IMG/VR virus record: IMGVR_UViG_3300012920_000122
Location: 1 to 34,892 of that record
DNA: 34,892 nucleotides
Origin: a virus
Strand: one strand, 5' to 3'
The notes beneath the pieces are model-generated. The model made no database searches and was not told the origin of the DNA. It worked only from the letters and a program-made list of their open reading frames with translations. Shown piece after piece: positions 1,689 to 28,900 of the stretch. Within the stretch, counting starts at the first letter, position 1; each line of letters starts with the position of its first letter. The translations under genes were made by a program, and so were the position numbers.

Positions 1689-3931
1689 TATGTCTGTTCT
1701 TCGCGAAACTCAAGAGCAGCTTTTGCATCTCGCATTGCTTGCTCTTGCTCAAACTTACGTTGCTTGAGGGCCATGTCGAGTTCAGCTTTTTGCTGGGCAA
1801 TCTGCATCTCGATCTCTGCCTTTTGTAGTTTCATATCCACCTCGGAAGGACCCGAAGGCTGCTGACCTTGTTCAGCGGCCATACGGTTCTGATCCCGTTG
1901 AATCTTCTCCAGTGCTTGCATCGTATTATTGATGGCCTCTTCGGCATACTGGAGGACCTGTTTTGTCTGGGAAACCAGACCTTCTAAAGCTGGGTCACCA
2001 GCAGCAAACTGAACAGTCTCGCTAATATGCTGGTAGAATGCCTGCAATAACGGCAGGGCTTGTTGAGGGTCCACTTGACCAGAATCCATTCCCTCGATGA
2101 CTTGCTGAAGAACCGGAACGTGGACCTGTAAATGTTGTCCATGCAACTCGTTCGACACTACCGGGACCGGGGTGCCTTGTTGCAGTTCTCCGTTTTCCAG
2201 AATAGCAATCTTTGTGTCCATCGCTGGGCGGCTCTCCACCTGCGCCGGAACGTATCGGTCAGCCAAGTCGTGACCCACCCTACTACTAACAATGTCACGA
2301 GTGAGATTACGACGACCGACATCATCGAATTGACCACTAATGCCTTGCAGCTCCCGTAAAGATACAAGTCTGTTGGCGAGTGACCCGCTTCCAATGGAAC
2401 GAACCGCTTTGGTCCTTTCGACATCGAGGCTCGTGATAAAATTTCTTTCAACCCCCCTCTTTTGGCAGCGGTCGTAGAAGTCTTTGACGGAGGCATCTGA
2501 TTTTTTAGATTGGACAACTCGACGGACCATTTCGCGTAAAAGGCGACCCCAACTAGCATAGAACAAATTCAGAGTCGATCCGCTGATGCGGGTTGCAACA
2601 TCCATGTCCGATACCACCTGCATCTGATTCCTGTATGGTGAACCCTGTTGCGGGCCATAGGAACTGATGGTGTCTGTATTGAGTTGCAGTTGCTGTGTTA
2701 AATCTTGCAGGGCTGGCTGGACCGCGGTGCCTAAGTTCGGGATCGCCTTCTCGACGATCTTTACATTCGGGCTCATCACGGCGTAGGCGCCATAGAAAGT
2801 AAACTGTAATTCATCCAGAGAACGCTGGTTCTCAGGCTGGATCATCACCGCAGAGGAAAGCATAGCGCCATCAATCTGCTGGCACCGGAGCCGGTTGCTC
2901 GTTTGGATGTGGTTGAAAATCCTCTGACCCAGACCGCGGATCGAATGGTAAGTGCCATTTGATCCCACGCCGTATGTAAACATCACATAGGCCTGCTCAG
3001 GTTTCTCGTATCGGCCAATGCGCTGATACATGAATTCCTTAGGGCTCTGCTCCGCAGAAATGTAGTGGCTGATACTGCCGTCCATCTCGCGAACCCAGTA
3101 ATGAAGGACATCCACCGTAGGGTTCTGGATGCCTTCGTAGAGGTCGTTGTTCTTGATCTCTGCTTGGTAGGCCTCGTAATCTGAATAGTAAGTCCCACGG
3201 CCACTAGAGCGACCGCTAGTCTTGACGTTCTTCATCATCACCCGCTTCACTTCCTCTACGTTCCACCCAACTGCTTTCGCAGCACTCTCGTTCTTGATGA
3301 AAGCGTGCAACTCATGGAGGTGATACTTCCGGCGACCCACTGCGATGTCGATGCTCTCTTCCGTCGCGGGTGATTGACGAGGGATCAACATGTCGGCAAA
3401 ACTGCCAACTTTGAATCTCCAGTCGTCTACAGAATCGAAGTATGCGATTCCAACGCCATGTTTGATGAAGTGCGTGCAGAGACGAAGGAAAGATGAGTGG
3501 AATTCAGGCCAGTTTCGGAACAGGTGGGTCAGCTCTTCGGCCACTATCTCTTCTTTTGGGCCAACTTCGCTTCTTTCGCCAGTCAAAGACTTTACCTCCA
3601 CAAGACGCTCAAGCGAACTATACAAATCCACATAGGCAGACAAAGACACATCCAGCAAACGCTGGGCCTCCCCAAAGTTCAGGTTCGTCTTCAGAGACTG
3701 CCCGCTGATAGCCAGCTTCCCCGTGTCGTAGGGAGCGGCGCCATCAAACATAGCATCCACGCGGGCTCGGTTGACCGCAGACTTCTCATCAGCTTTTCGC
3801 AAAGTCTGAAAAATTCCTACCGCAGACTTTACGTCCTTTAGCCGCGATTTGACGGGTGCTCCCTTCTCGTCAAGACTTTCGAGGTCCAACCCATCCAATT
3901 CATAAAGTTTTGACATTGGAGCGTGCATCAT
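1688..3931 (-). CDS. portal (head-tail connector) protein
   Basis: A 747-aa protein of the size expected for large podovirus portals. It would form the dodecameric ring at one capsid vertex through which DNA is packaged and ejected. The central region (about 130-540) has the mixed alpha/beta, Trp- and Tyr-rich composition of portal wing and stem domains, including an FYASWGRLLREMVRRV helix near residue 460. The last 120 residues form a Gln/Lys/Glu-rich coiled coil, as in many portal C-termini. It lies directly upstream of the small protein and scaffold genes. Two starts are possible: ATG at 3931 (double Met) or ATG at 3916 (MSKLYELDG), the latter perhaps more usual. No Shine-Dalgarno is seen for either. 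Confidence 0.85.
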   Translation of the reverse strand: MMHAPMSKLYELDGLDLESLDEKGAPVKSRLKDVKSAVGIFQTLRKADEKSAVNRARVDAMFDGAAPYDTGKLAISGQSLKTNLNFGEAQRLLDVSLSAYVDLYSSLERLVEVKSLTGERSEVGPKEEIVAEELTHLFRNWPEFHSSFLRLCTHFIKHGVGIAYFDSVDDWRFKVGSFADMLIPRQSPATEESIDIAVGRRKYHLHELHAFIKNESAAKAVGWNVEEVKRVMMKNVKTSGRSSGRGTYYSDYEAYQAEIKNNDLYEGIQNPTVDVLHYWVREMDGSISHYISAEQSPKEFMYQRIGRYEKPEQAYVMFTYGVGSNGTYHSIRGLGQRIFNHIQTSNRLRCQQIDGAMLSSAVMIQPENQRSLDELQFTFYGAYAVMSPNVKIVEKAIPNLGTAVQPALQDLTQQLQLNTDTISSYGPQQGSPYRNQMQVVSDMDVATRISGSTLNLFYASWGRLLREMVRRVVQSKKSDASVKDFYDRCQKRGVERNFITSLDVERTKAVRSIGSGSLANRLVSLRELQGISGQFDDVGRRNLTRDIVSSRVGHDLADRYVPAQVESRPAMDTKIAILENGELQQGTPVPVVSNELHGQHLQVHVPVLQQVIEGMDSGQVDPQQALPLLQAFYQHISETVQFAAGDPALEGLVSQTKQVLQYAEEAINNTMQALEKIQRDQNRMAAEQGQQPSGPSEVDMKLQKAEIEMQIAQQKAELDMALKQRKFEQEQAMRDAKAALEFREEQT

Positions 3932-3950: not shown

Positions 3951-4391
3951 TCAAGGTTTAGGAAAACAGTGATCCATGATCCTTGAAACCGGAACATGGC
4001 ACTGCTTACCATGTTTCCCGCGCAATCGAACATAGGGCTGGTGCTTGCGGTGGTAATATTCCGTCACCATGAACGGTTGCCGGCTCCGTGGACCCCGAAG
4101 GTTCTTCACCTTCCACACCGCCCCGTAGGGGGTGACCACATAATCAGGGAAGTCCGGCACAGGGACATAGGTATCGGTAGGGAGGTGCAGGGTTCGGGCA
4201 TCAGGGTTCTCGTGCGAGACGCGGATTGAGCGTCCGTCGTCGGTGACCACTGTGGAGTGCCATTGGTTCGAGATCCAGTGGCGCTTGAGCCGGCGCTTCG
4301 TCTTTACATTGTAGATGTAGCCGCTGGGACTCAGGCCGTAGTCGGAGGCGCCTTTGACGGGCGTGAAGGTTTGGGGCGTCATGGGATTCAA
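3951..4391 (-). CDS. NUMOD4/HNH-type protein lacking the nuclease core
   Basis: About 146 aa from a TTG start (4391), or 143 aa from the in-frame ATG at 4382 (MTPQTF). Two NUMOD4-like motifs are visible: ASDYGLSPSGYIYNVKT near residue 15 and FPDYVVTPYGAVWKVKN near 80. Such modules bind DNA next to HNH nuclease cores in phage homing endonucleases. The C-terminus reads VPVSRIMDHCFPKP, which resembles the helix just before an HNH core, and then stops. The catalytic His-Asn-His segment is missing. It may be a truncated homing endonuclease kept as a DNA-binding protein, or a decaying remnant. It sits immediately upstream of the portal gene. Confidence 0.6.
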   Translation of the reverse strand: MNPMTPQTFTPVKGASDYGLSPSGYIYNVKTKRRLKRHWISNQWHSTVVTDDGRSIRVSHENPDARTLHLPTDTYVPVPDFPDYVVTPYGAVWKVKNLRGPRSRQPFMVTEYYHRKHQPYVRLRGKHGKQCHVPVSRIMDHCFPKP

Positions 4392-4410
4392 AAAGTATTC
4401 CTATATTTAG

Positions 4411-4443
4411 TGTAGTCTTAATGAAGTCTTCTATAAGACTACA
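4411..4443. repeat. 33-bp interrupted dyad, copy 1 of 2
   Basis: TGTAGTCTTA (4411-4420) is the exact inverse of TAAGACTACA (4434-4443), with an inner GAAG-T-CTTC palindrome between them. A close copy lies at 28646-28678. Both lie 12-20 bases after the stop of a small leftward gene and before the next leftward start. No T-run follows, so a classical terminator is unlikely. An RNase III-type processing hairpin or a repressor operator fits better (inference). Confidence 0.6.
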
Positions 4444-4462
4444 TTAGATACAAGAGAACTTT

Positions 4463-4726
4463 TTATTTTTGTTTCCGACGGGCCTTGATCCTTTCCTTGT
4501 TCCGAAGGTAGTAAGCCTTGTTGTAATCGCTCTTCTTTTTCTTCTTTTCCGCGAGCTTTTCAGGCTCAAGAACGGACCACAACTCGTCTCGACGATCGAA
4601 CTTCTTCTTTGTTCGGTGATAATAATCACGCTGATACTTTAATCGAGCTTCCCTGTTTCGCCTGTAATACGCTTGTTTTATAGGGTCTGGCACGCCTGAT
4701 TGTCCGCAAAAGGGGGTAAGTGTCAA
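4463..4726 (-). CDS. small basic protein, function unknown
   Basis: About 87 aa from a TTG start at 4726; a shorter form from GTG (MPDPIKQAYYRRN) is also possible and no ATG is available. The sequence is very Lys/Arg-rich, with two similar elements: AYYRRNREARLKYQRDYY near residue 20 and AYYLRNKERIKARRKQK at the C-terminus. Repeats of this YY-x-x-N-x-E type occur next to HNH or recombination endonuclease cores in phages, but no catalytic residues are seen. Nucleic-acid binding is likely from charge alone. It is the first leftward gene of this module and faces the rightward cassette across a divergent intergenic region. Confidence 0.5.
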   Translation of the reverse strand: MTLTPFCGQSGVPDPIKQAYYRRNREARLKYQRDYYHRTKKKFDRRDELWSVLEPEKLAEKKKKKSDYNKAYYLRNKERIKARRKQK

Positions 4727-4989
4727 ATTTTTTCATACGCCCCTATATATACATGTATGCGCGGTATAAAAAGCCGGCACCCCACCGGTGGGGGGTCTCG
4801 CAATATATTAATAGCAGACCGATCCGGCCCTGTTCCACGGTCCACGGTCCATGGCCCACTGTTCGAGGTGCGAGGTCCACTGTCGAACAATCGCCGTTCA
4901 GGGTTTGCGTTCATCAGGACCAGAACACTCCTGCCCCCTGAATCCCAGTCCCTGATCCATGTTCCCTGTATAGAGAAGCATGGGCCAGT
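4727..4989. other. divergent intergenic region with A/T-rich and repeat elements
   Basis: No convincing gene is present. An A/T-rich segment (4740-4770) contains TATATATACATGTATG and GGTATAAAAAG and could hold host-type promoter elements. Next come a perfect palindrome (4780-4793), short tandem GGTCCAC units (4833-4851), an inverted repeat TGTTCGA/TCGAACA (4860-4866, 4883-4889) and CCCTGAAT/CCCTGATCC repeats (4929-4958). It separates the leftward virion module from the rightward cassette, so regulatory function is likely. Confidence 0.4.
4780..4793. repeat. perfect 14-bp palindrome
   Basis: CCCCACCGGTGGGG reads identically on both strands. On the minus strand the adjoining sequence GCGAGACCCCCCA partly matches the GCGCACCCCCCA core of the rightward promoter candidates. 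It could be an operator or a decayed promoter facing the leftward genes. Confidence 0.35.
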
Positions 4990-4990
4990 G

Positions 4991-5013
4991 AAGCGCACCC
5001 CCCATTGTTGGTG
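4991..5013 (+). promoter_or_regulatory. T7-type phage promoter candidate A
   Basis: AAGCGCACCCCCCATTGTTG followed by GTG matches sites at 7574 and 8625 over the first 15 bases. It stands directly before the first gene of the rightward cassette. The A/T part (ATTGTTG) departs most from the CACTATAG end of T7-like promoters, so it may be weaker than the other two. Confidence 0.5.
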
Positions 5014-5036
5014 TAATGAGAACCAACCAACAACCA

Positions 5037-5390: not shown

Positions 5391-5612
5391 ATGAACATAC
5401 CGACATACCAGATTGAAAACAATATGCTAGTTATCATCCCATGCCTTGGAGCCTATGGCCCATGCTCAATCGAGTGGCTCGTCAGATACTGCCTTGAGCA
5501 GAAGGACACCACAAGGGAAGCGGTGCTTGCTGCCATTGATCGTATCGCATCCAGCCCCGAAGCTACCGTGGAGGACGGCTACCTTATGTTCGAGGGCCTA
5601 GGCGGATGTTAA
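5391..5612 (+). CDS. unknown 73-aa protein
   Basis: A 73-aa protein, MNIPTYQIENNMLVIIPCL at the N-terminus, with a middle helix pair (SIEWLVRYCLEQKDTTREAVLAA) and a short beta-like end (ATVEDGYLMFEG). The helix-turn-helix-plus-wing appearance could suggest a small winged-helix fold, but this is weak. The start follows the AACCAACC-type leader with no Shine-Dalgarno. Ribozyme copy 1 begins 8-11 bases after its stop codon, so cleavage would leave this mRNA with a hairpin 3' end. Confidence 0.6.
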   Translation: MNIPTYQIENNMLVIIPCLGAYGPCSIEWLVRYCLEQKDTTREAVLAAIDRIASSPEATVEDGYLMFEGLGGC

Positions 5613-5619
5613 TCCTGAA

Positions 5620-5685
5620 ATAGTCGAAACGCCCGCAAGGGCGTCCGGTATGGGCTGACCGCCTGCCGCTTGAAGATGACAGGTC
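5620..5685 (+). ncRNA. type II hammerhead ribozyme, copy 1 (variant core)
   Basis: GUC (5623-5625) forms half of stem II and GAAA is at 5626-5629. Stem III CGCCC/GGGCG carries a GCAA tetraloop (5630-5643). U5644-C5645 completes the GUC cleavage site. Stem I is CGG (5646-5648)/CCG (5666-5668). The core reads CUUGAAGAU instead of CUGANGA, with two extra U, followed by GAC (5678-5680). Stem II may extend by CCU/AGG across a bulge. Order and pairing match the hammerhead, but the core insertions could reduce or abolish activity. It lies 19 bases before the next ATG. Confidence 0.65.
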
Positions 5686-5703
5686 AAACCAACCAACATT
5701 ACC

Positions 5704-6228
5704 ATGAGAAACAACCAAGAGATATTGAAGCTCGCCGTCGCAGAATTCATCGATCACACGACTGACATTCTGGCTGATGGCATCGTCGAATACCGACAGG
5801 ATCGCCAAGCATTTGATGCCGAAGGCAACCTCTGGTTTTATTTACGGGGCTACTCGAACACCGACGGGGGAGTGTTCCGCGATTACCGCCTGTATCAGGC
5901 CCGCATCGAGGGGAGCTGGGGGAATGAGAAGGGCGTGATCAGAGCCTTCTGGCCGAAGGATCCTGACAACGGGGAATACTTCTGGAATGGGGACTGGGGC
6001 ACCGACCCCCTCGCCCGTCTCTACTTCGACGACATGCAGCGTTATTTGCTGGGCGCCCATTTTGACAAGCCGGAGATCGAGGCCCGCTTCAACAAGAAGA
6101 CTGGCGCCCTGACCAGCCGCTACTTCGACCTCCCCTTCGGCGAGCGGCGAGCAGTGCGCGGCCTGTATGCTGAGAAGAAGAACCCACTGCGATGCACCAT
6201 CGCGGGCAACCCTGAGAGCTACGAGTGA
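5704..6228 (+). CDS. unknown 174-aa protein
   Basis: A 174-aa soluble protein rich in Tyr, Trp and Phe, with a beta-like centre (NLWFYLRGYSNTDGGVFRDY and RLYQARIEGSWGNEKGVIRA) followed by an acidic WPKDPDNGEYFWNGDWGTD segment and a basic C-terminus. No family recognised. ATG 5704 follows CAAACCAACCAACATTACC, the cassette-type leader, and stands 19 bases after ribozyme copy 1. Its TGA overlaps the GTG start of the ASCH-like gene (GTGA), indicating translational coupling. Confidence 0.65.
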   Translation: MRNNQEILKLAVAEFIDHTTDILADGIVEYRQDRQAFDAEGNLWFYLRGYSNTDGGVFRDYRLYQARIEGSWGNEKGVIRAFWPKDPDNGEYFWNGDWGTDPLARLYFDDMQRYLLGAHFDKPEIEARFNKKTGALTSRYFDLPFGERRAVRGLYAEKKNPLRCTIAGNPESYE

Positions 6229-6593
6229 AAGCGTTTAACTGTAACGATAGCCAGAAAAACTGGACCGCCCTCATCCTCGCCGGACAGAAGACAATCGAGA
6301 CCAGAAACTCCCCCTCCCTTGGCTCACTTGTGGGCCAGCGAGTGGGGCTCATTCAGACGGGAGTGGGCAAGGCCAAGCTCGTCGGCTACGTCACCATCTC
6401 CGGCGCTGTCACATACGAAGACGAACCCCACTTCCGAAAGGACGAGCACCTGCACCATGTTCCCTGCGACCTGAACGGGTTTGAGTGGACCGGTGCAAAG
6501 GTGGGCTACGTCCTCACGGATCCCGAACGGATAGACCCTCAGACCCTGCCGGCCTCGTGCAGGGGGATCGTCATAAGAAACCTCCCTGAGTGA
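6225..6593 (+). CDS. ASCH-domain-like protein
   Basis: A 122-aa protein, the usual length for a single ASCH domain. It starts with GTG overlapping the upstream TGA by two bases. The family signature is visible: WTALILAGQKTIETRNSP near residues 13-30 (the W-x3-I-x-x-G-x-K-T-x-E-x-R type motif), then GQRVGLIQTG and AKLVGYVTISGAV as beta strands of the PUA-like barrel. ASCH proteins bind RNA or act on nucleotides or modified bases; some hydrolyse acetylcytidine. An RNA-related role is attractive in a ribozyme-containing cassette but unproven. Assignment rests on motif pattern, without an alignment. Confidence 0.65.
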   Translation: MKAFNCNDSQKNWTALILAGQKTIETRNSPSLGSLVGQRVGLIQTGVGKAKLVGYVTISGAVTYEDEPHFRKDEHLHHVPCDLNGFEWTGAKVGYVLTDPERIDPQTLPASCRGIVIRNLPE

Positions 6594-6602
6594 TCCTTGA
6601 CT

Positions 6603-6632
6603 CTGCTCCTCTTCCATTGCGAAGGGGAGCAG
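6603..6632 (+). promoter_or_regulatory. strong hairpin between ASCH-like gene and next gene
   Basis: CTGCTCCTCTT (6603-6613) pairs with AAGGGGAGCAG (6622-6632) around an 8-base loop, with one G-U pair. No T-run follows, so it is not a standard terminator. It takes the intergenic place that ribozymes hold elsewhere in the cassette, so a processing or 3'-end protective role is plausible. Its presence also argues that the next gene starts at ATG 6662 and not at GTG 6590. Confidence 0.5.
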
Positions 6633-6661
6633 GAATCAGGAATCAACCTGAACTAGAAACC

Positions 6662-7597
6662 ATGAAACTAGAAATCGACGACATCACATTACTTGAAGTG
6701 GCCACTCGTAACGAGCTGGCCAACCTACGGAAACGCATCGAGCGGGTAACCAGTCACCCGCGATCATCGGGCCAAGCATGGGAACACCTCAAGAGGCAGG
6801 TAGAGGAGGCGGTCAAGATCACAGAGCAAAGACTCTCCGGCGCCGCCCTAATATGGCGCGAGGAGAGTGGGGCGCAGATTGATAATCGCCTCAAGAGGCG
6901 CTTCCACATCGCGACCTTGGAGCACGACGACCATCCTCTCGCCGGCGAGGCACGGGGGATGTATAAAACGCCGGTCACCGTGATCACTGAAGGGCCTTAC
7001 GGGGGTGATCACTCGACCGTCGCGGACGAGCGCCGCTATTACATCGCGTGCCATGTGGGTAACATCACCGAGCAGCACGACATCTCCAGCGATGAATCGG
7101 TGACCAGCTTGGAACGGCTCGAAGCTCACGCTGAGGGACTGCTCGAAGGCACGGTGAAAAAATATCTGGAGTTGGAGGCCGAGCAATTGCGAACCGACAA
7201 GGACAATCTGGCAGACACCTTCGGCGGGCCTCACCCGCTGGGGCCAGAGCTGGACTACGGGACGCTGTCCTCCCACCAGATCAGGACAGCGGTGGAGATT
7301 GCCAAGCTGGCCATGGACGCTGACTACTCCGCGGGCTGGCAGATCCTTGCCATCGACGACGAGGGCAAGCGCATCACTGGGGAGCCCATCGCATATCAGC
7401 GGAAGGGGAGCAACCCTCCCTCGCTCAAGTTGATCCATGATCTCATGGCCCTGCACCCCGACGCCGTGGAGCTGGTGATCGAGGGCATGGGGATGGTGTT
7501 CTCCGAGACCGGCAACGCCATCGAGAGACGCGAGCACGCCGAGCCCAACGGTGAGTGGTGGCAGGTCTCCATCAAGCGCACCCCCCACTATAGTTGA
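6662..7597 (+). CDS. unknown 311-aa protein
   Basis: A 311-aa protein from ATG 6662, which follows CAACCTGAACTAGAAACC, a cassette-type leader. A longer frame from GTG 6590 overlaps the preceding stop but crosses a strong hairpin and is less likely. The first 70 residues are a charged coiled coil; the centre (about 85-150) has beta-like segments (VTVITEGPYGG and RRYYIACHVGN); the end is mixed and closes with WWQVSIKRTPHYS. No family recognised. Its last codons contain promoter candidate B, so coding and regulatory sequence are stacked here. Confidence 0.65.
   Translation: MKLEIDDITLLEVATRNELANLRKRIERVTSHPRSSGQAWEHLKRQVEEAVKITEQRLSGAALIWREESGAQIDNRLKRRFHIATLEHDDHPLAGEARGMYKTPVTVITEGPYGGDHSTVADERRYYIACHVGNITEQHDISSDESVTSLERLEAHAEGLLEGTVKKYLELEAEQLRTDKDNLADTFGGPHPLGPELDYGTLSSHQIRTAVEIAKLAMDADYSAGWQILAIDDEGKRITGEPIAYQRKGSNPPSLKLIHDLMALHPDAVELVIEGMGMVFSETGNAIERREHAEPNGEWWQVSIKRTPHYS
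7574..7596 (+). promoter_or_regulatory. T7-type phage promoter candidate B
   Basis: AAGCGCACCCCCCACTATAG (7574-7593) ends in CACTATAG, identical to the -7 to +1 part of the T7 and SP6 promoter consensus. ACCC-x-CACTA also resembles the T3 consensus. The first 14 bases match sites at 4991 and 8625 exactly. It sits inside the last codons of the upstream gene, and the next ATG is 10 bases after the expected start G. No phage RNA polymerase gene is in the window. Confidence 0.6.
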
Positions 7598-7602
7598 ACC
7601 TT

Positions 7603-7860
7603 ATGAACACGAACATGACAAACACCAGAGCCTTCGAGGAGGCAGTGATCAGGAGCAGCAGCAAAACATTCGAGGCATTCGACTCCCTCGAAAAGTTCCT
7701 AGAAGAGAAGAGGTGGGACCTGACCCCGCGATCAAACAAGGAATTCAGAAGCCGCGAACTGGCTGTTGAATTCTGGAATACTGCGAGTGAGTCCACGCTC
7801 AATGTCTTCGATGAATGGACTCGCGTTGCTGACGCAATCAACAGCACCCCCCGAAAGTAA
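7603..7860 (+). CDS. unknown 85-aa protein, paralogue-like to the 11539 gene
   Basis: An 85-aa protein from ATG 7603 (MNTNMTNTRAFEEAV), just downstream of promoter candidate B. A TTG-start extension to 7594 would begin at the promoter start site and is unlikely. The C-terminal half (ELAVEFWNTASESTLNVFDE followed by WTRV) resembles a segment of the 117-aa protein encoded at 11539 (AALEFALTFESQSVIDQFTR followed by V), suggesting a shared small helical domain. Function unknown. Its stop codon directly abuts ribozyme copy 2. Confidence 0.6.
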   Translation: MNTNMTNTRAFEEAVIRSSSKTFEAFDSLEKFLEEKRWDLTPRSNKEFRSRELAVEFWNTASESTLNVFDEWTRVADAINSTPRK

Positions 7861-7920
7861 CAGTCGAAACGCCGCGAGGCGTCCGGTATGGAATGGCCCC
7901 CTGCCGCTGAAGTGACAGGC
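7861..7920 (+). ncRNA. type II hammerhead ribozyme, copy 2 (core variant)
   Basis: GUC (7863-7865) and GAAA (7866-7869) are followed by stem III CGCC-GCGA-GGCG (7870-7881), a GNRA tetraloop hairpin. U7882-C7883 completes the cleavage GUC. Stem I is CGG (7884-7886)/CCG (7904-7906). The core CUGAAGU (7907-7913) has U in place of the invariant final A, then GAC (7914-7916) closes stem II. All other elements match the hammerhead. The A-to-U change may weaken cleavage. It begins right after the stop codon of the preceding gene; the next ATG is 22 bases downstream. Confidence 0.7.
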
Positions 7921-7941
7921 CAACGTAGAACCAATACACAT

Positions 7942-8625
7942 ATGAAAGATACCAACAACATCCTGCCATACAACACGAGCAACCCTTTGCCGTATAACAC
8001 GAGCAACCCTCTGCCGTATAACAAAGCCAAGATCCAATCCCTCGCTCTTCAGATCAAGAGAACAGGCGAAGCCATCACTGCGACGATGGACATCAACGAG
8101 GTGACACAGCGTAGGCCACTCAAGGTGGATCGAGGCCTGCGATTGTTGCAGGCTCACCGATGGGACCTGAGAAAGGAATACAAGGAAATGGTCAAGTCCA
8201 CCCGCGCAAGACGCGAGATAGGGCCAGAGCCTGAGACTCTCCCGACCATCCAGCGCATCGAGATCACGGCGGCAGAGTTACCGGATGGTCAATTCCGCCG
8301 CCGGTTTCGCAGCGTCGATGACTTCGACCGCGAGCTGGAGATGATTGCAAAGTGGCGCGATGAGAGTGGAGAAGACCGCTATACCTACACTAAGGTATAC
8401 TTCAAGATCATCCTGACCGATGGCTCCTCCTACACTGGGGGCCGGATAGATGTCCGCAACTCCTCGCGCTTCCAAGAGAATGAGAGCGGTGAGATCTCGC
8501 TGGTGGAGCACGTTCTCCACAACCTGCGAGGGCAGATGGATGGGGCATGGGGAACGATGGATCTGGACGAGGTCTACCGGTGGGAGGAGGTGCTCCTCAG
8601 ATCGCAGCATCCGATCGCTCTCTGA
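7942..8625 (+). CDS. unknown 227-aa protein with N-terminal LPYNTSNP repeats
   Basis: A 227-aa protein from ATG 7942 (MKDTNNILPYNTSN). An upstream ATG at 7888 lies inside ribozyme copy 2 and is rejected. The N-terminus carries 2.7 tandem copies of LPYNTSNP encoded by a 24-bp repeat, a likely flexible linker. The rest is mixed: a basic helical region (about 30-95), then a beta-like domain (YTYTKVYFKIILTDGSSYTG and GGRIDVR) and a Trp-containing helical end. No family recognised. Ribozyme 2 lies before it and promoter candidate C begins at its stop codon. Confidence 0.65.
   Translation: MKDTNNILPYNTSNPLPYNTSNPLPYNKAKIQSLALQIKRTGEAITATMDINEVTQRRPLKVDRGLRLLQAHRWDLRKEYKEMVKSTRARREIGPEPETLPTIQRIEITAAELPDGQFRRRFRSVDDFDRELEMIAKWRDESGEDRYTYTKVYFKIILTDGSSYTGGRIDVRNSSRFQENESGEISLVEHVLHNLRGQMDGAWGTMDLDEVYRWEEVLLRSQHPIAL
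7963..8028 (+). repeat. 24-bp in-frame tandem repeat
   Basis: Two full units (7963-7986, 7987-8010) and one partial unit (8011-8028) with a few substitutions, each encoding LPYNTSNP. The length is a multiple of three, so unit gain or loss keeps the reading frame. It probably arose by slippage. Confidence 0.8.
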
Positions 8626-8647
8626 AGCGCACCCCCCATTATAGGTG
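8625..8647 (+). promoter_or_regulatory. T7-type phage promoter candidate C, feeding ribozyme 3
   Basis: AAGCGCACCCCCCATTATAG (8625-8644) followed by GTG. It matches site A over 15 bases and site B over 14 bases, and ends in ATTATAGG, close to the T7-type CACTATAGG. Initiation at G8644 or G8645 would give an RNA whose first bases (GGUGACAGUCGAAAC) run straight into ribozyme 3. It overlaps only the last base of the upstream gene, so coding constraint does not explain its conservation. Confidence 0.6.
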
Positions 8648-8649
8648 AC

Positions 8650-8710
8650 AGTCGAAACGCCCTTCGGGGCGTCCGGTGAGGAATGAGTCCCCGCCGCTGA
8701 TGAGACAGCT
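8650..8710 (+). ncRNA. type II hammerhead ribozyme, copy 3 (canonical core)
   Basis: GUC (8651-8653), GAAA (8654-8657), stem III CGCCC-UUCG-GGGCG (8658-8671) with the very stable cUUCGg tetraloop, cleavage-site U8672-C8673, stem I CGG (8674-8676)/CCG (8694-8696) with an inner GGA/UCC helix, canonical core CUGAUGA (8697-8703), and GAC (8704-8706) pairing with the first GUC. All invariant hammerhead positions are present. Cleavage is expected after C8673. Stem II is only three certain pairs, so activity may need loop contacts. The next ATG is at 8738. Confidence 0.85.
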
Positions 8711-8737
8711 CTCTCAATTGTTCATTGATACACTACC

Positions 8738-9502
8738 ATGTCTATCACACTACACCCGCACCGCGGGAAGAATAGATGGTGTGGCCCCGGTGCCATTGCC
8801 ATCCTGACAGGCGTCACAACTGATGACGCATCGCGCATGATCCGAGCCTTCACCGGCAAAAGAAATTGCATGGGCACCCCTACTCATGTCGTCCGCAAGG
8901 TCCTGTATGAGTGCGGGATCACATCCCACTTGTCCGACGAATACTGGTCGGGCAAGAGGCCGACCCTCAATCAGTGGGTCGCCGATGGTCTCAGTCGAGG
9001 GGGCACCTACCTCGTCATCGCAGGCAACCACTTCCAGATCCTGACAGACGGTCTGTTCGTGGACAATCAGGTGAAGGAGGTGACCGCCTTCGAGGACCTG
9101 AAGAAAGGCAAGCGCCGTAGGGTCTCGCACGCCTACCGACTTCACTCCCCGAACGGGGTGAAGATGCCCACCCACATCAACGGTGTCCTCGTTGATGCTG
9201 AGATGCTGGAGGAGCAGCGGAGGAAAATCCGCAGGCAACTTGATCCGACCCGCCGGAAAGCGCGTGCCCTCGCCAAGAAGTTGGATGTCACCATAGACAC
9301 TGAGGACTGGCGCGATTATGAACAGCTCTGGGTCTACGTGAGCGAAGAGTTCGAGTTGCAGTATGGCGACCCGTGGGAGGAAGGAGACGGTCACTGCCGG
9401 CATAATTGGTATGAGGTTCTCCAGATGCTGGAGGATGAACAGCGGCGGCGGGAACACCGTAGAGAGCTGGGGGTCATGGATCCTAGGTGGTTGGGCGAAT
9501 AG
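8738..9502 (+). CDS. C39-like papain-fold cysteine peptidase domain protein
   Basis: A 254-aa protein. The N-terminal 115 residues show a papain-like C39-type pattern: NRWCGPGAIAILTG, with candidate nucleophile Cys15 at a helix start preceded by a polar residue; GGTYLVIAGNHFQIL with His98; and Asp109 or Asn110 in LFVDNQ as the third residue. The remainder (about 130-254) is basic, then acidic and helical, with an HCRHNW segment, and is unrecognised. It could process phage or host proteins or act as an inactive fold. It is preceded by promoter C and ribozyme 3. Its TAG stop overlaps the first base of ribozyme 4 stem II. Confidence 0.6.
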   Translation: MSITLHPHRGKNRWCGPGAIAILTGVTTDDASRMIRAFTGKRNCMGTPTHVVRKVLYECGITSHLSDEYWSGKRPTLNQWVADGLSRGGTYLVIAGNHFQILTDGLFVDNQVKEVTAFEDLKKGKRRRVSHAYRLHSPNGVKMPTHINGVLVDAEMLEEQRRKIRRQLDPTRRKARALAKKLDVTIDTEDWRDYEQLWVYVSEEFELQYGDPWEEGDGHCRHNWYEVLQMLEDEQRRREHRRELGVMDPRWLGE

Positions 9503-9566
9503 TCGAAACGGGGGTGCGCCCCCGTCTGGCAGGGACTGGCCTCCCGCCACTGAAGAGACAGGCCTA
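9501..9566 (+). ncRNA. type II hammerhead ribozyme, copy 4 (canonical core)
   Basis: GUC (9502-9504), GAAA (9505-9508), stem III CGGGGG-UGCG-CCCCCG (9509-9524), cleavage-site U9525-C9526, stem I UGG (9527-9529)/CCA (9547-9549), core CUGAAGA (9550-9556), GAC (9557-9559). Compared with the other copies, stem III is rewritten yet fully paired, and the first stem I pair changes from C-G to U-A on both sides, which is direct covariation. GGC/GCC may extend stem II across an internal loop. It overlaps the stop codon of the peptidase gene by one base. Confidence 0.88.
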
Positions 9567-9577
9567 GAAAAAGTTTG

Positions 9578-9627: not shown

Positions 9628-10476
9628 ATGAAAGATACACATCTACCTACAGTTACACCCGCGGAGGCAAAGACCTTCACCGGCGAGGATCTCATTGTCG
9701 TCGCCGACATCTACGTCGAGCCCGGTTACGATGCCGAGGAAGGCCCGTCCATCGAGCTGGACATCCTGCACCCCGACCTTCGGGACAATGCCGTCTGGCC
9801 TGAGGACATCGGGCACGGGAGCGGGCAGCGTCTCCGTTGTCAGGTGTGCGGACAGCACCTGCTCTACGCGAGCGAGGCTGTTCACAAGCCCAGCAACCGT
9901 GGCCTGTTCATTGGCCGCGAGTGTGCTCACCACATCCACGGCTTGCGTGGTCTCACCACGCTCGACATGAAGCGCCTCAAGAGGCGCCTGCACACACGCC
10001 AACGATTCCACAAGCTGGCGGAAGACCGCCCTCGTTTGGCACCCGTGATTGAGTGGGCGCGGGGCAGCGAGGCCCACTACATCGCGAGGGACATCGTCTC
10101 TCGATTCGGCGAGGGTCGCAAGCTCTCGTTCAAGCAGTGGCGCCTGCTCGTCAAGCTCCACCGTGGCAGCCTTGAGCGTGCCAAGCGTGAGGCCCAGTGG
10201 GCTGAAGAGAAGGCCGGCGCCCCCGCCCTCGTCGAGGGACGGCAGGAGATCGAGGGGGTCATCCTCAAGATCGACGAACGCGAGACCGATTGGGGGTGGG
10301 TGCATAAGATCACCCTCAAGATGGACAACGCCAACGTGGTGTGGGGGTCCCTGCCTAGCGCACTCAGCAACTGTGACAAGGGCGACCGTGTTGCGTTCAC
10401 CGCGACAGTGCAGCTCTCCGATAAGGACGAGCACTTCGGATTCTTCAAGCGCCCTTCCAAGGCGCGTGTTGCCTGA
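9628..10476 (+). CDS. zinc-motif and OB-like nucleic-acid-binding protein
   Basis: A 282-aa protein from ATG 9628 (MKDTHLPTV), preceded by GTAGTTACC. A Cys/His cluster, CQVCGQ (Cys71, Cys74), His86, and ECAHH (Cys99, His101), resembles a zinc ribbon or treble clef. A basic helical middle (about 112-195) follows. The C-terminal 75 residues (EIEGVILKIDERETDWGWVH, ITLKMDNANVVWGSLP, DRVAFTATVQLS, FGFFKRPS) have the strand pattern of an OB-like barrel, a pattern found in uncharacterised phage and plasmid proteins. Likely binds DNA or RNA. It ends a ribozyme-punctuated stretch; no ribozyme is found after it. Confidence 0.65.
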   Translation: MKDTHLPTVTPAEAKTFTGEDLIVVADIYVEPGYDAEEGPSIELDILHPDLRDNAVWPEDIGHGSGQRLRCQVCGQHLLYASEAVHKPSNRGLFIGRECAHHIHGLRGLTTLDMKRLKRRLHTRQRFHKLAEDRPRLAPVIEWARGSEAHYIARDIVSRFGEGRKLSFKQWRLLVKLHRGSLERAKREAQWAEEKAGAPALVEGRQEIEGVILKIDERETDWGWVHKITLKMDNANVVWGSLPSALSNCDKGDRVAFTATVQLSDKDEHFGFFKRPSKARVA

Positions 10477-12727: not shown

Positions 12728-12829
12728 TTGTTGGGACGGTCAGAGGTAAGTCGTGAGTGCCGCGCATACTTTGGTGGTCTACCCCCAGCCACGCAAACCA
12801 CGAAGGGGGTCTTCATGGTAGTAACATAA
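12728..12829 (+). other. non-coding stretch with hairpin before terminator
   Basis: No reading frame of note. ACCCCC (12781-12786) pairs with GGGGGT (12805-12810), and TGGT and ACCA segments offer alternative pairing. With the terminator that follows, this could be a 3' UTR or the body of a small RNA. tRNA features such as a TTCRA T-loop are absent. Confidence 0.3.
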
Positions 12830-12859
12830 AGGGCGTCCCTTCGGGGGCGCCCTTTTTTT
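12830..12859 (+). terminator. strong rho-independent terminator of the rightward cassette
   Basis: AGGGCGTCCC (12830-12839) pairs with GGGGCGCCCT (12844-12853) around a TTCG tetraloop, with one G-U pair, followed by a run of seven T (12853-12859). It is the clearest terminator in the window and ends the main part of the cassette before two further small genes. Confidence 0.9.
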
Positions 12860-12919
12860 GTGCCCTCGTTTAGGGCTCGACCGGCGGATCGGTTGCTGGT
12901 TTAATCAAGGCTCGCTGCC

Positions 12920-13219: not shown

Positions 13220-13440
13220 GTCGCCACCACGTTCAAATCTTTGAGCCCGCCGATATGCCCCTGATGTTTCATGGGATATTCTATGGTCGCGAGCTGCAAC
13301 GGTATCAGGTGTGCCCCCTGATTGAGGGCAAACTCTGGGACCCCCTCCCCCTCAAGCGGGGAGACGCCTTGGCAGAGATGGCAAAGGCCTACCTGCTTGA
13401 GGTTGAGGAGAAGTCAGTGAGCAAGCCGCTTAGTTCTTAG
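13216..13440 (+). CDS. unknown 74-aa protein, last gene of cassette
   Basis: A 74-aa protein (MSRHHVQIFEPADMPLMFHG) with a mixed N-terminal half and a helical C-terminus. ATG overlaps the stop of the preceding gene, so the two are probably co-translated. No family recognised. The last 11 bases overlap, tail to tail, the end of the 4313-aa gene on the other strand, so the cassette abuts the virion module with no spacer. Confidence 0.55.
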   Translation: MSRHHVQIFEPADMPLMFHGIFYGRELQRYQVCPLIEGKLWDPLPLKRGDALAEMAKAYLLEVEEKSVSKPLSS

Positions 13441-16400
13441 GTAGGTCGTCAACCATGATGAACCGGTCTCTCTTATAGAATTCTTCACTAAGAATTCTTG
13501 CTCTCCGCTCACCTTCGGTTTCATCCCCCTTGCTTTTGGCAGTGTTCTTAAACTCCTTATTTAGCAGCTCGTCAAACAGACGACTTTGATCTGGCCTGTC
13601 CATTACGGCGACGGGTTCTAGTAGTTTGTTAGTCCTCGATTTGCCAACGCTTCTCTCTATCATCACCGCCTTGACTCTCTCAGGTGGAACGCCGAGACGA
13701 ACTAAGCCACGCATAACCAAGAGAAGCTCTTGGTTCTTACGCCTCAATGCATCTGTCGTGTCGTTAAACACATCACGAATTGCTTGATCGCTCATGTTTG
13801 CATCCCTCTTGAGGATGCCATATCTACTCTTAACGTCCGCAAAATCTTTGCGATACTGTAGCAAGTATCTCCCAAACTCTGACTCCAAGTCGTGCGTATG
13901 TATCTTGAAGGGGGCAAAAGTTTTGATGACTTCCCAGCCCGCGCCAGTTAGATCCCCCTTACTCATATCACCATAGGCTTCTTTCAAGGCTCTGAAATTT
14001 ACGGGCAAGAATGCTTCCTTAATAAACGCCATGAATCTTTCAGATACATTTCTCTCTGCTTCATCGGCGCCTTCTATGACAAACCGGCGACCCGTCCTTG
14101 GATTTTTATTCAGCATCATCGCATTAATAAATGCAGAGACCGCAATCTGAGGATCGAAGTATTGATCTTTCAAATAACCTAGAGCCAACTCTTGAGCGGC
14201 GCCTAACTTTTGGCCTTTGAAAAGTTGTTCTAAAGATTTTGTGATCGGATCCACATACATCGCAAACGGATTGACAAAGGTCAGGTTCAAGGAACGGAGG
14301 GTCCCACCAAAAAAGAAACGTGTGAAGGTCTGCCTTTTATAATATTCAGGGCCAAGGATTTTAAGAGCATCGTCTTCTTCATCCCCAAACCCAACGCCAG
14401 CAAAGACCTTACTTACAACCTGAGGTAAGACATAACTGATAACCCCTAGCATACTGGTCATGGCACCTATTCTAGAGCCGCCTCTCTTTGCCATAATCGT
14501 ATCCCCATCTTGGATACCTTGCGTAAGCTCTCTAGCCCCTAAGATATAAGTGTTGTGAACAATACGAGGAATCTCAGTTCTAAATCTAATGAAGGGTCCA
14601 ATTAAATTGGAGAGCATATTATTTCTGAAAGCGTCTACAATTGGGAGAGACTGTGAGTATGATTGATAAGTCATTTTGATCTTATCAGCAGCGGCTCTCT
14701 TACGACCCTCCAGACCCAAGGTAGCATTCCGGCCCTCTGGATATTTAGCAGCGGACTGCTCCAAGAATTCAAGCTCACGATTATAGGCAACAATCTTAAC
14801 AGCCGCATCAATAGCGGCTGATATTTCGATTACTCTTTCGGTCGCTACTGAGGCCCCCTTCTTACCCTTAGCAAGAACGCTTTCCTGTTCGTGCAGTTTT
14901 TCGAGAGCGGCGCCCAATGACTCTTCGCCCAAAACCAAATCTTGGAGGACGCCTGCCCGCAACTCATCACGGAATAGTCCCAAGTTAGCTAACTCAATCA
15001 ACTCAGCGTCTACAACATCCCGACCCAGTCTGTTCCCAAGGCTTACGACATCGCCGGCTGTTCTAGCAAACGTCTGAACAAACACACTATCCTTTTTATA
15101 AAAGTCTGAAGCCTTGAATCCCCCTTGTGCCAACAAGAAGAAGTAAGAACCCATAGCATTCCTTGTATGAAAACCGGGATTGGGGTGCGTTTTCAACAAC
15201 ATACCCAGACCCGTTGTGAACCTGAAGCCTCTCGAAAAAAGGTCCATGGCTTGGGTGGCAGTGTCCGTAACTCCTGCCGTAGACACACCACTGAGAGCTT
15301 GATTAAGGCCCGTGACTAAAGCAGCGGGGGCGTAAAGATCACGCAATGGATCACTTGCTCCCCGTGCCTGAGCTGTCGCAGTCTTAGAGGTTTCGGTTGT
15401 GCTTCTGACCGGCCTCCAATCGTAGTAAGGAGACTCTTTTCCAAACTCTTTTACACTCTCATATCTCTCCTTAGTGGTGACCATTGACTTAGACTCAAGT
15501 CCATAGTCTCTAATCTGATTTAAGAATACTTGCTGGGAGGTAATGTGAGAGACCGTTGAAAGAGTTCTTAATGTAAGGTCTGTCCCAACTTCAGGCCCAT
15601 ACTCTCCAAGTAGATCACGGATAGGTTTAGGCAAGTCTGTCCGCTTCCTAAGGTTGTCAATAGACTGCCGGAGATCTGATCTAGTTGATTCTGAAAGACC
15701 GGCTCCGGGTTCGTATTGCTGAAGGAACGCCTGATAAGTGTCTTCAGCTATTTTCGGATTGTTATCAAGTTCCTCGTTGGCGAGCACTTGAGCCTCGTGG
15801 AAGTCCATCCCTTTTTTAACATGGAAATCCGTGCGCTGTCTTAAGTAGTCCTCTGCAAAATATTCCTGCGCGGCATCTCTAACCTCAGCAAACTCAGGAT
15901 CTGATCTTACCTTATCAAGGAAACCAACCTCTGTGAACATACGGTAAGCACGGGTCAAATAGATATCCGCCGTGTCAGAAATTCGTATGCCTATCTCAGG
16001 ACTAACTCCCGCCTCTATCAATTTCTCTTGTAGAGGATTAATCAAATCCTCTCTGATTTCTATGATGTGAGAAGCAAGGCTAACCTTACGACCGCGAGAC
16101 CAGCTACGAACTTTTGCAGGGTGACTCCTCTCCAGAGAAGCTAAGGCCCGCAATCGATCTTGATTAACTTTTTCGACAGCCTCTTTATAAGCCTCCCTTG
16201 TTTTTTCTTCTCGTTCCTCTTTGGCAATATCTCGCAATGCCTGTTTCTCATCGCGATGTTCCTGCCTTGTTAGCGACCCTCGCTCTAAGTTCTGAGCAAA
16301 CTCAAGGTCATCAATGTATTCTTGCTCTATCTGATCCAAGACACTGTCGGGAACAAGATTGCCATCAACATACCCCTGAGCTTGAGCGATAAGACCAATG

Positions 16401-19400
16401 GGGACTTCGTTATCAAAGTCTTCTTTGATGATCAACTTCAACTCTTTGGCGTAAGCTATTGGAGCTACTACTCCCAGAGCCTTGTTCATCTGGTCTCTAG
16501 CCTCAACGATCTTTCTGTAGGGGGTAGCTATGTCTCCTTGCGTAAGCCTGAGTAGGATATCCCAAGTTGTATCAAAGATATTTGTCCTTGGTTTTCCTCT
16601 TCTTATGAGAGCCTTGGAACGGTCAGCTCTCTCAGAAGGAATCATAGCCAAAGGCACATCTATTTGATCGATTATGTCTTGGAACATTCCCCCAGATGAA
16701 GGCCTCTTCACAGGAGACCTGAGCTGGAGGGGAACCTGCTCAAGAGTCTTCTCAACAGCCTCGTCGTAGTCGGAAACATATTCCCCCTGACCAGCAAAGT
16801 ATTGTGTGGGCTTGCCAACATAGCGCATGAACACTACGTCGGGGGCGCCGGCATTGAAGCGGGCGTATCTCTCAGCATCCCATCCTTCGGGAGCAAACTC
16901 AGGGTTGAACCTGAGGCGTGCAACAGCCTTGAATCCTAGCTTGCCGTAGATGTCAGGAAGGACGGTGTCAAAACCATTAAGCCATTTTACCTTGTTGGTT
17001 TCGGTGGCAATCTCAAAGGCATCCAGAACCATCTCTGTGGTGGCTCCCGCAGATTTAGTGACTGAGCCTACCTCCCCAGATGGGGAGATACTTATTGTCG
17101 TGGTCTCACCATCTTTCTCCAAGAGAATGAGGTCGTAGCCATCATACTCTTCAGGCGGGAGAACATCAACGGATGTCCCAAACTTGTTGGCCTCTTTATT
17201 AGCAAGGGCCGCAGCAGAAAAATCTTCCGCGCTTAGAGATACTCGTCGATCTTCCTGCGAAGATCCTCGTCCGCTTCGATACCTCGTTCGGGCGCCGGTA
17301 AGTCTGCCGGTGCGCTTGACTGGGGAACTAAGCTGGACAGCCCCTCCACGAACGCCGCCAGTTGACTGTCCGTCAACTGCCCCGCTATCTCGTGAGGTTC
17401 GTCTACTCTTATCTCGTTGGACACTTCGGGCTGCTGATTCTGCTTCTTCTCCAAGCCCTCTGAGCTTGGCGAGTTTGATGAATTCTTCGTCATAGGATGA
17501 TTTGAGGCTACTGTCTTTCCGTCCTTTTATGCGCTCCCAAATGTCCTTCTCAGGATACCAGAGCACAGCCTGAACGTCCGCATTTGTAACACGGTAACCT
17601 CTCTTTTCAAGTCTCTTCCGTATGTCATTCACAACGGCAGAAATAACCCTGCGATCTTGTGGAGTAGGAACATCAATCGGTTTTACCGAATCAGCTATCC
17701 TCGAAGCCGCGAGCGCCCATGCTGGTTTGAAAGCATTGCGCTCTTGCTTGTCCATCAAGAGGTCCTTGTTGTTGGCTACATACCAGTCTTGGGTAAAGCC
17801 CGCCTTCAGCGTTTTAGCTTTGCGAGCATTAAATGTTTCCTCATCAATTGTCCCCGCTTTGAAATCTGCCTCCAGTTGCTTACGCACTTTTGCGAGACGA
17901 GGCTTTGCCTTCTCAAAGGCTCTATCAATTTCGCGGGCCTCTTTCTCTTTGGCTCGAATAAATTCTTTATGAGTCAGAGGCTTGCCGGATCTGAACTTAC
18001 CTAGTTCAAATCCAGACATGGGAGTCTGGGTCAGCTTGAAATGACGCTCGCTTATCTTTTTAAGTTCCTTCGCAAATTTAATAACAGCCGATCCAAACTC
18101 TTGGTCCGTCTCCAGACGTTTCATAACTGCATCCGACATACTGCGGTATGTGCCGTCTGTCTTATTAGAGCGATTGATTGGTCGGAGCTTGCTGATAACT
18201 GGATCTAGTTTGATCCCATACTCACGGGCCGCGTCGATGAGTTTAGCAAGTTGCCGGTCTGTGGTTCCAGAACCGACGACATCTCCAGTCCACCGGCCCC
18301 ATGTCCTACGCATCCAAAGGTCCACGGTAACGGGATCAAAGTTGCCCATGATATTTTGCAAGAACCCTTGTCCAATCTTAGGGCCAAAGATAGCAGCCCC
18401 TTGGACAGTCTCTTCCTTTGTCCCTTCGATAGAAGCTTTCCTGCCAGTTACTTGCTCAATAAGTTTCTCCAGATCGGGGACCTTGATGTCGCGAGTTAAG
18501 AATGCTTCAAGCTCCGCGAAGCCATACCTGTCGATGAATTTATTGGCGAGGTTTAGGTTGGAAGCAATCGAGGGAGACTTCTCTCCGTAGCCGCCGACTT
18601 TCTTTCCGTCTTCATCGAGTGTCGATTCTGCTTTAGATGGATCAAACTTACCGGTCTCGCGGAATATCTGATACTGCTCTTCCGCAAACCTAGTGTTGAG
18701 AGCAACGGTCAGGTTTTGAGAAGTAATTGCTAAAGCAATTCTCATGGTGAGATCCGCTGCTGCGGCTGGATCTTCGGCTGTCTCAAATCCCTTATAGGTC
18801 ACCGCCAGCTCAGAGTTAGCCAGCTCTGGGTGAAGAACCGCCGCTACCTGCATAGCAATTTCGATTGATGTCGAATACCAGTCAGACGCATTCTTACCAC
18901 TAGCGTGGAAGGCTGCCTCGAATTCATCGACGCCCACTTGCGTAATCAATTCAATCTCTTCTGGAGTGATGTCTTTACTGGTGAGCTTACGACCCCAGAA
19001 CTCCATTGCCAGCTCCTCGATGTAACTCCCGACCTCTTCGTTCTTCGTAACATTTGCTCCTTTAGGCGGGAGGTTCCGGTCAGACCATAAGAAGTTATGA
19101 GCCGAGGTGGCAAAGCGATCGGCTGTTCTGTCAGCGTGTGCTATTCTGACATCCGACCTGAGGATATCTACAAGGGTATCCTTCTCTTGGAAATCAACAT
19201 AACGCTGAACAGATGACTGAGGGTTAGAAGCATCAAAGACAATTTTAGCTAGTGGCCGGCTCCGAAGGACTGGCACTGCTTCTCTGACAAAACCCCGTTC
19301 CATGGCACTATACTCCCTGAGCATCAAGTTGACCGCAGCCTCCATCGATCCGCCCAAGTTCTTAGTGTTGCGGGCTCCAGATCTAAGTCCGGCCAGAACA

Positions 19401-28568: not shown

Positions 28569-28645
28569 CGGCGGTGGACTAACATCCCAGACGTTGTCAA
28601 CAACCCCGATGGTAACCCGCAACCCAAAACTTACCTCTAAAGATG

Positions 28646-28678
28646 TGTAGTCTCATAGAAGCCTTCAATAAGACTACA
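28646..28678. repeat. 33-bp interrupted dyad, copy 2 of 2
   Basis: TGTAGTCTCA (28646-28655) and TAAGACTACA (28669-28678) with inner GAAG-C-CTTC. It shares outer arms and inner palindrome with the copy at 4411-4443 while intervening bases differ. It lies 12 bases after the stop of a small leftward gene, and a further AGACTAC half-site follows at 28686-28692. A processing hairpin or operator is likely. Confidence 0.6.
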
Positions 28679-28690
28679 CTTAATCAGAGA

Positions 28691-28900
28691 CTACTTTTGA
28701 TGTCCGTTGAGGATTTTGCCCAAAGCAGCCAGTCGATCCATAGAGGACTCAAAGCTTTTGCGCCTATGTTTTGTAGGCCGCTTATCAACGTCTATCTCAC
28801 AAAGGTTCGATTGAATCTCTCTTAACTCGTTAAAAATTAACTGCCTAGCCGACTCCCTTTTGATCATCGGCATGTGATGCTTTACGTCTATTATCTTCAT
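28691..28900 (-). CDS. unknown 69-aa basic protein
   Basis: A 69-aa helical protein (MKIIDVKHHMPMIKRESARQ ending GKILNGHQK), rich in Lys, Arg and His. It starts seven bases after the TerL stop and is followed by the dyad at 28646. Small basic proteins next to TerL are common but unrelated to each other, so no function is given. The closeness to TerL suggests co-transcription. Confidence 0.5.
   Translation of the reverse strand: MKIIDVKHHMPMIKRESARQLIFNELREIQSNLCEIDVDKRPTKHRRKSFESSMDRLAALGKILNGHQK

Follow-up and report, generated by a model that had tools for sequence, protein, structure and literature searches.

What do hammerhead ribozymes do when several of them lie between the genes of a single phage operon? 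The question is raised by the linear IMG/VR viral record IMGVR_UViG_3300012920_000122, whose full length of 34,892 bp was analysed and will be called the window. Four type II hammerheads, all intergenic, are found on its + strand, starting at 5621, 7861, 8649 and 9500. They very probably form a cluster of self-cleaving ribozymes in an accessory-gene operon of an uncultured marine double-stranded DNA phage and split its transcript. The motifs, their covarying structure, their intergenic placement and their conservation at two junctions in a relative are seen directly.

The identification as type II hammerheads, already made in a sequence-only reading that had placed the motifs at 5620, 7861, 8650 and 9501 (offset by 1–2 nt at most), is supported by Rfam, two covariance models, covariation and a kept position in the relative, G002. 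The Rfam type II model, which that reading had proposed as a check, is passed by half of the copies. The RF02276 matches at 9501–9567 and 8650–8714 lie above the gathering score of 37, copy 1 (5622–5688, E 0.016) lies under it, and RF02276 reports no match for copy 2 at 7861. A first covariance model that included the window copies finds four places in the window with 71–86 bits, the runner-up having 11 bits. Because circularity had to be avoided, a second covariance model was built from nine ribozymes of other phages, with no window sequence. It finds the same four places, with E-values from 5e-16 to 9e-11, and no further window match at E ≤ 1 with filters off. All four copies are therefore true kin of one another and of the phage type II hammerheads. 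The sequence GTCGAAACG occurs four times in the window against 0.23 expected, and none of 100 shuffles attains four.

5621–5692, + strand: copy 1, type II hammerhead; predicted cut 5645/5646; second model 58.6 bits, Rfam 28.6 bits, below the cut-off
7861–7928, + strand: copy 2, type II hammerhead; predicted cut 7883/7884; second model 58.6 bits, no Rfam match
8649–8718, + strand: copy 3, type II hammerhead; predicted cut 8673/8674; second model 71.2 bits, Rfam 38.5 bits
9500–9571, + strand: copy 4, type II hammerhead; predicted cut 9526/9527; second model 82.9 bits, Rfam 38.7 bits

The alignment and the pair counts show that stems I and III of the window copies are closed by loops and that stem II is open. 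In an alignment of seven copies (the four of the window and three of G002), pairing holds in 94% of the pair cells; sliding the 3' partners lowers this to 35–51%. Five pairs, in stem III, stem I and a pseudoknot, are altered on both sides. Stem III varies in sequence and length among the copies with its pairing kept throughout. Its loops (GCAA, GCGA, UUCG and UGCG) and the change from C-G to U-A in stem I of copy 4, the latter confirmed by the alignment, had been described correctly. The pseudoknot, formed by loop I and the 3' tail, had been missed. It is present in all four window copies with 4–5 covarying base pairs, read from the sequence as follows.

5656–5660 (UGACC) with 5682–5686 (GGUCA), + strand: copy 1 pseudoknot
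7894–7898 (UGGCC) with 7918–7922 (GGCCA), + strand: copy 2 pseudoknot
8685–8688 (GAGU) with 8708–8711 (GCUC), + strand: copy 3 pseudoknot
9538–9542 (GGCCU) with 9560–9564 (AGGCC), + strand: copy 4 pseudoknot

Runs as good as those observed arise in 30 of 20,000 redeals of the tail letters, and in 190 ribozymes from other phages loop I and the tail pair over a mean run of 4.9, against 3.5 after tail exchange. The same pseudoknot has been published, and the fast cleavage of a type II ribozyme tested in 2011 depends on it (PMC3088659).

The four ribozymes occupy 4 of about 15 junctions in the gene run at 4.7–13.4 kb and are therefore a series, not the regular punctuation of the operon that had been claimed. 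With several same-strand copies flanking genes in a phage genome, the window has the features by which clustered phage hammerheads are recognised. All copies are intergenic, as had been stated, but the UAG stop of the gene preceding copy 4 lies inside the ribozyme rather than before it. Copies 1 and 3 begin 8 nt and 23 nt after the preceding stop, respectively.

5391–5612, + strand: open reading frame (ORF) 5' of copy 1; stop 5610–5612
5704–6228, + strand: ORF 3' of copy 1; no family found
7603–7860, + strand: ORF 5' of copy 2; its UAA stop (7858–7860) abuts the ribozyme
7942–8625, + strand: ORF between copies 2 and 3; no family above cut-off
8738–9502, + strand: ORF between copies 3 and 4; phrog_3754, unknown function; G002 counterpart 71% identical
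9500–9502, + strand: UAG stop of gene 8738–9502; its G doubles as the outer stem II G (11.3) in copy 4
9628–10476, + strand: ORF 3' of copy 4; phrog_4750, unknown function; G002 counterpart 79% identical
12828–12862, + strand: strong terminator-like hairpin; 12 pairs, UUCG loop, T-run

The last of these could mark the transcript end; the number of terminator-like sites in the region is not above chance.

Relatives of the phage were sought through TerL, which has 431 relatives in IMG/VR. With regard to a possible host, two of them are in contigs binned to an Opitutae metagenome-assembled genome and two in other bins. Among deposited phages no named relative was found for TerL or for the ribozyme region. 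Hammerheads occur in one of 50 relatives' records, G002 (IMGVR_UViG_3300037963_004142), whose TerL is 92% identical. The search of related phages at the same junctions, suggested in the sequence-only reading, yields two ribozymes there. G002 carries whole ribozymes at 1231, 2163 and 3140 and one at 1–60 cut by the contig end. Those at 1231 and 3140 precede the counterparts of window genes 8738–9502 and 9628–10476, like copies 3 and 4, with a small ORF (3232–3426) separating the ribozyme at 3140 from its gene. The counterpart of 8738–9502 thus has hammerheads on both sides, as in the window. Behind the shared gene, copy 4 of the window is like the 2163 ribozyme of G002 in stem III and in its CUGAAGA core, but the sequence 3' of copy 4 corresponds to that 3' of the ribozyme at 3140. 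The start of the G002 contig inside a hammerhead (L172:1–60) is perhaps an assembly break at repeated ribozymes, and series in metagenomes may therefore be under-counted.

The CUGANGA-like core that had been ascribed to every copy is found in two of them. Copy 3 has the consensus CUGAUGA and copy 4 has CUGAAGA, with a change at the free position 7; both are probably active. Copy 2 has CUGAAGU (A9U), off the consensus, and copy 1 has CUUGAAGAU before GAC, with two inserted bases. In the hammerhead core A9 pairs with G12, and changing A9 is damaging. Because of their altered cores, copies 1 and 2 may cleave slowly or not at all, their helices and pseudoknots being intact nonetheless, and their activity is doubtful.

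Several observations weigh against a functional cluster. Only three of the best 150 matches depart from the core, and two of these are copies 1 and 2 of the window. Single-strand folding energies are ordinary (z from -1.7 to 0.2), and minimum-energy folds, which told little, recover the hammerhead helices incompletely; a pseudoknot is beyond what programs of this kind can represent. No copy is present in 49 of the 50 lineage records, many of which are fragments. The ribozymes are therefore not essential to the lineage, and conservation across it was ruled out, with copies only in the window and G002 among 51 records. The chances are evenly balanced that copies 3 and 4 work and that copies 1 and 2 are decaying remnants, persisting only since their genes do. 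Both A9U and the double insertion are very rare among relatives, and several core-variant hammerheads are slow or inactive (Perreault et al. 2011, PMC3088659). On the other hand, copies 1 and 2 retain all three stems and a matched pseudoknot. In the third core departure, L041:4764 of another phage, the same U is inserted ahead of stem II and the rest of the ribozyme is perfect, so that at least this change recurs.

The arrangement was surveyed in other phages by a pattern scan that gave 84 stretches (set 1) and a second scan, with another stem II, that gave at least 120 more (set 2). Both scans selected records by strict match, and the counts are therefore not frequencies among all phages. The two sets together hold about 440 distinct ribozymes. 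Rfam finds at least two copies in 32 of 50 records taken from set 1, the longest series having 11. The strict descriptor finds 202 copies in set 1 and at least 369 in set 2, and none in the reversed sequences of both sets. Two or more ribozymes are present at 45 of 79 loci in set 1 and at 73 of 103 in set 2 (among the matches listed), and none of the 118 multi-copy loci mixes strands. The ribozyme usually occupies the gap between stop and start. In set 1, 156 of 181 have an upstream ORF ending there and, no more than 100 nt further on, an ORF that starts with ATG, compared with 19% of random nearby places, and the ATG distances peak at 18–28 nt past stem II in both sets.

The stop codon can be part of the ribozyme itself. 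In 100 of 187 set 1 ribozymes, G11.3 of stem II is the last letter of a UAG; the U and A lay outside the search pattern, and UAG makes up 28% of background stops. In 83 of the 100 the UAG terminates a reading frame that has been open for 50 codons or more; the corresponding counts in the other frames are 9 and 13. The stops of set 2 are close to the ribozyme and often abut it, with no preference for UAG. A fusion common to all type II hammerheads was thus rejected; it is strong in the group with a GUC stem, and in the GGC group the stop is merely near. The UAG of copy 4 shows the same fusion as the first group. The ribozymes are followed by a wide variety of genes (134 families among 170 proteins), and no common function was seen, ArdC accounting for 3 of 143, ArdA for 1 of 143 and others being diverse.

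Clustered type II hammerheads in prophages were published in 2011, when processing of long phage transcripts was proposed and cleavage of phage-type clusters was shown in vitro and in E. coli (PMC3088659). The window cluster is of this known kind and its arrangement is common, which weakens the earlier suggestion of a distinctive strategy. It shares with the prophage clusters (RF02276) the fold, the pseudoknot between loop I and the 3' tail, and the flanking of unrelated genes singly or in short blocks. An antirestriction gene is a neighbour in both cases, ardA in the prophages and ardC in G002. It differs in belonging to another, uncultured marine phage and in the altered cores of two copies. 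A stop codon in stem II and hybrid ribozymes do not appear in the main text of PMC3088659 as far as searched (the term "stop codon" is absent). The HHphage of haloviruses HF1/HF2 is likewise a core-variant hammerhead just 5' of a start codon, and the 5' end of its transcript maps within 3 nt of the cut site (PMC3088659). Unlike the window copies, it is reported as single, before a helicase gene, in an archaeal virus and with other core changes.

Cultured examples were found in the Streptomyces phages R4, Hank144 and Pablito, which carry 9, 7 and 6 Rfam-level copies, respectively. All of these lie in the right arms and have the orientation of the coding strand. Their strict-descriptor copies sit between the depositors' genes. 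As in the window, these are type II series in one operon, on one strand, between or against annotated genes; in contrast, their stem II is mostly GGC/GCC and the phages are unrelated. The literature search found no paper on these hammerheads. Three tiny R4 (L315) genes, gp60.1 (1763–1846), gp67.1 (4126–4218) and gp75.1 (7074–7175), coincide with Rfam-level hammerheads at 1777–1841, 4145–4209 and 7097–7161, and are probably mis-annotations.

On the reading favoured here, each window ribozyme would be co-transcribed with the operon and would fold once the 3' strand of its pseudoknot is made. Cleavage would follow the GUC that separates stem III from stem I. It would leave on the upstream mRNA a 3'-terminal stem III hairpin (GNRA or UNCG loop) and a 2',3'-cyclic phosphate; the downstream mRNA would start with a 5'-OH, the stem I hairpin, a short leader and AUG. 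A 5'-OH end would resist decay that depends on a 5'-monophosphate. The long transcript would thus become mRNAs of one to a few genes that decay separately. Four-base stem III loops are GNRA or UNCG in 118 of 151 cases in set 1, in 117 of 161 in set 2 and in all four window copies, which would fit a protected 3' end on the upstream piece.

Gain or loss of genes, in at least five cases, has its breakpoints within ribozymes. Two phages, L034 and L080, are 99% identical over 6.6 kb, and L080 carries an extra unit of 826 nt. The sole L034 ribozyme there is a composite: its 5' part matches one L080 ribozyme and its 3' tail the following one, with the join in CUGAUGAGACAGG. We infer a deletion in L034, because both L080 ribozymes have matched pseudoknots. 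At another junction of this pair the flanks match and the ribozyme bodies differ; a third phage, L005, has two ribozymes there with a gene between, each like one of the L034/L080 pair. A systematic search gave seven places at which a pair of phages is distinguished by a single stretch bounded by ribozymes, the shorter member carrying a hybrid ribozyme. At five of them the difference involves a gene, at the other two a tandem ribozyme pair. Direct tandems without a gene between occur in L280 (positions 1448 and 1522) and L293 (766 and 834), a related phage having one hybrid. No description of the stop-codon fusion or of hybrid ribozymes at sites of gene gain or loss was found in the open papers searched, subscription papers being outside reach.

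It is possible, though on balance unlikely, that the ribozymes are mainly recombination joints, at which short homology in the conserved blocks GUCGAAAC and CUGANGAGACAG allows insertion, loss or exchange of genes, with cleavage secondary or insulating new genes. The hybrid places and the gene diversity behind ribozymes point this way, as does the G002 unit of a ribozyme followed by an ArdC antirestriction gene (PF08401, PF18818), which is missing from the window. Near-identical blocks end inside ribozymes in both sequences in 21 of 59 cases against 6.6 expected by length, an excess that is suggestive only, because gene boundaries attract phage breakpoints anyway and the ribozyme is that boundary. 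The conserved catalytic core and pseudoknot argue instead for selection on RNA cleavage. Transcript splitting may also be combined with gene exchange in a cassette system. The ribozyme would be the whole joint (stem II stop, ribozyme, start), recombined genes would arrive insulated as their own mRNA, and a ribosome on the stop would delay folding until translation ends; we regard this as a tentative and rather doubtful extension.

That the hairpins act uncleaved, as structures for mRNA stability or translation coupling, is quite improbable. Stable tetraloop hairpins and pseudoknots directly between stops and starts would suit such a role, but the unpaired CUGANGA, GAAA and GUC are the most conserved part, and a plain hairpin needs none of them. 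Chance hairpins or repeats merely resembling hammerheads, for which it speaks that Rfam alone passes two of the four, were ruled out with near certainty by the covariation, the shuffles, the absence of matches in reversed controls and the second model, which gives E ≤ 9e-11 for all four copies and finds nothing else.

Other repeats were observed in the window. The repeat AAGCGCACCCCCCAYTRTAG is present at 4984–5014, 7567–7597 and 8618–8648. In gene 6662–7597 it encodes the end, KRTPHYS; at 8618 it lies just past the stop of gene 7942–8625 and in another frame, as if the gene end were frameshifted. Two 64-nt copies at 4410–4473 and 28645–28708, 73% identical and with the inverted repeats GTGTAGTCT..AGACTACA, lie in the two intergenic regions outside the ribozyme operon and are possibly control or terminator elements. 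On the - strand, 13430–26371 is a single ORF of 4313 amino acids, whose ends are 24–42% identical in relatives, compared with 84–92% for TerL.

According to a 2017 review (PMC6155905), it was still an open question what hammerheads do in prokaryotes and phages. The window and the survey show that the series are common, lie exactly between stop and start, and travel with genes, which leads to concrete tests of that role. Since cultured Streptomyces phages carry 6–9 copies and R4 is grown on S. coelicolor, the role of the hammerheads is testable in an ordinary laboratory.

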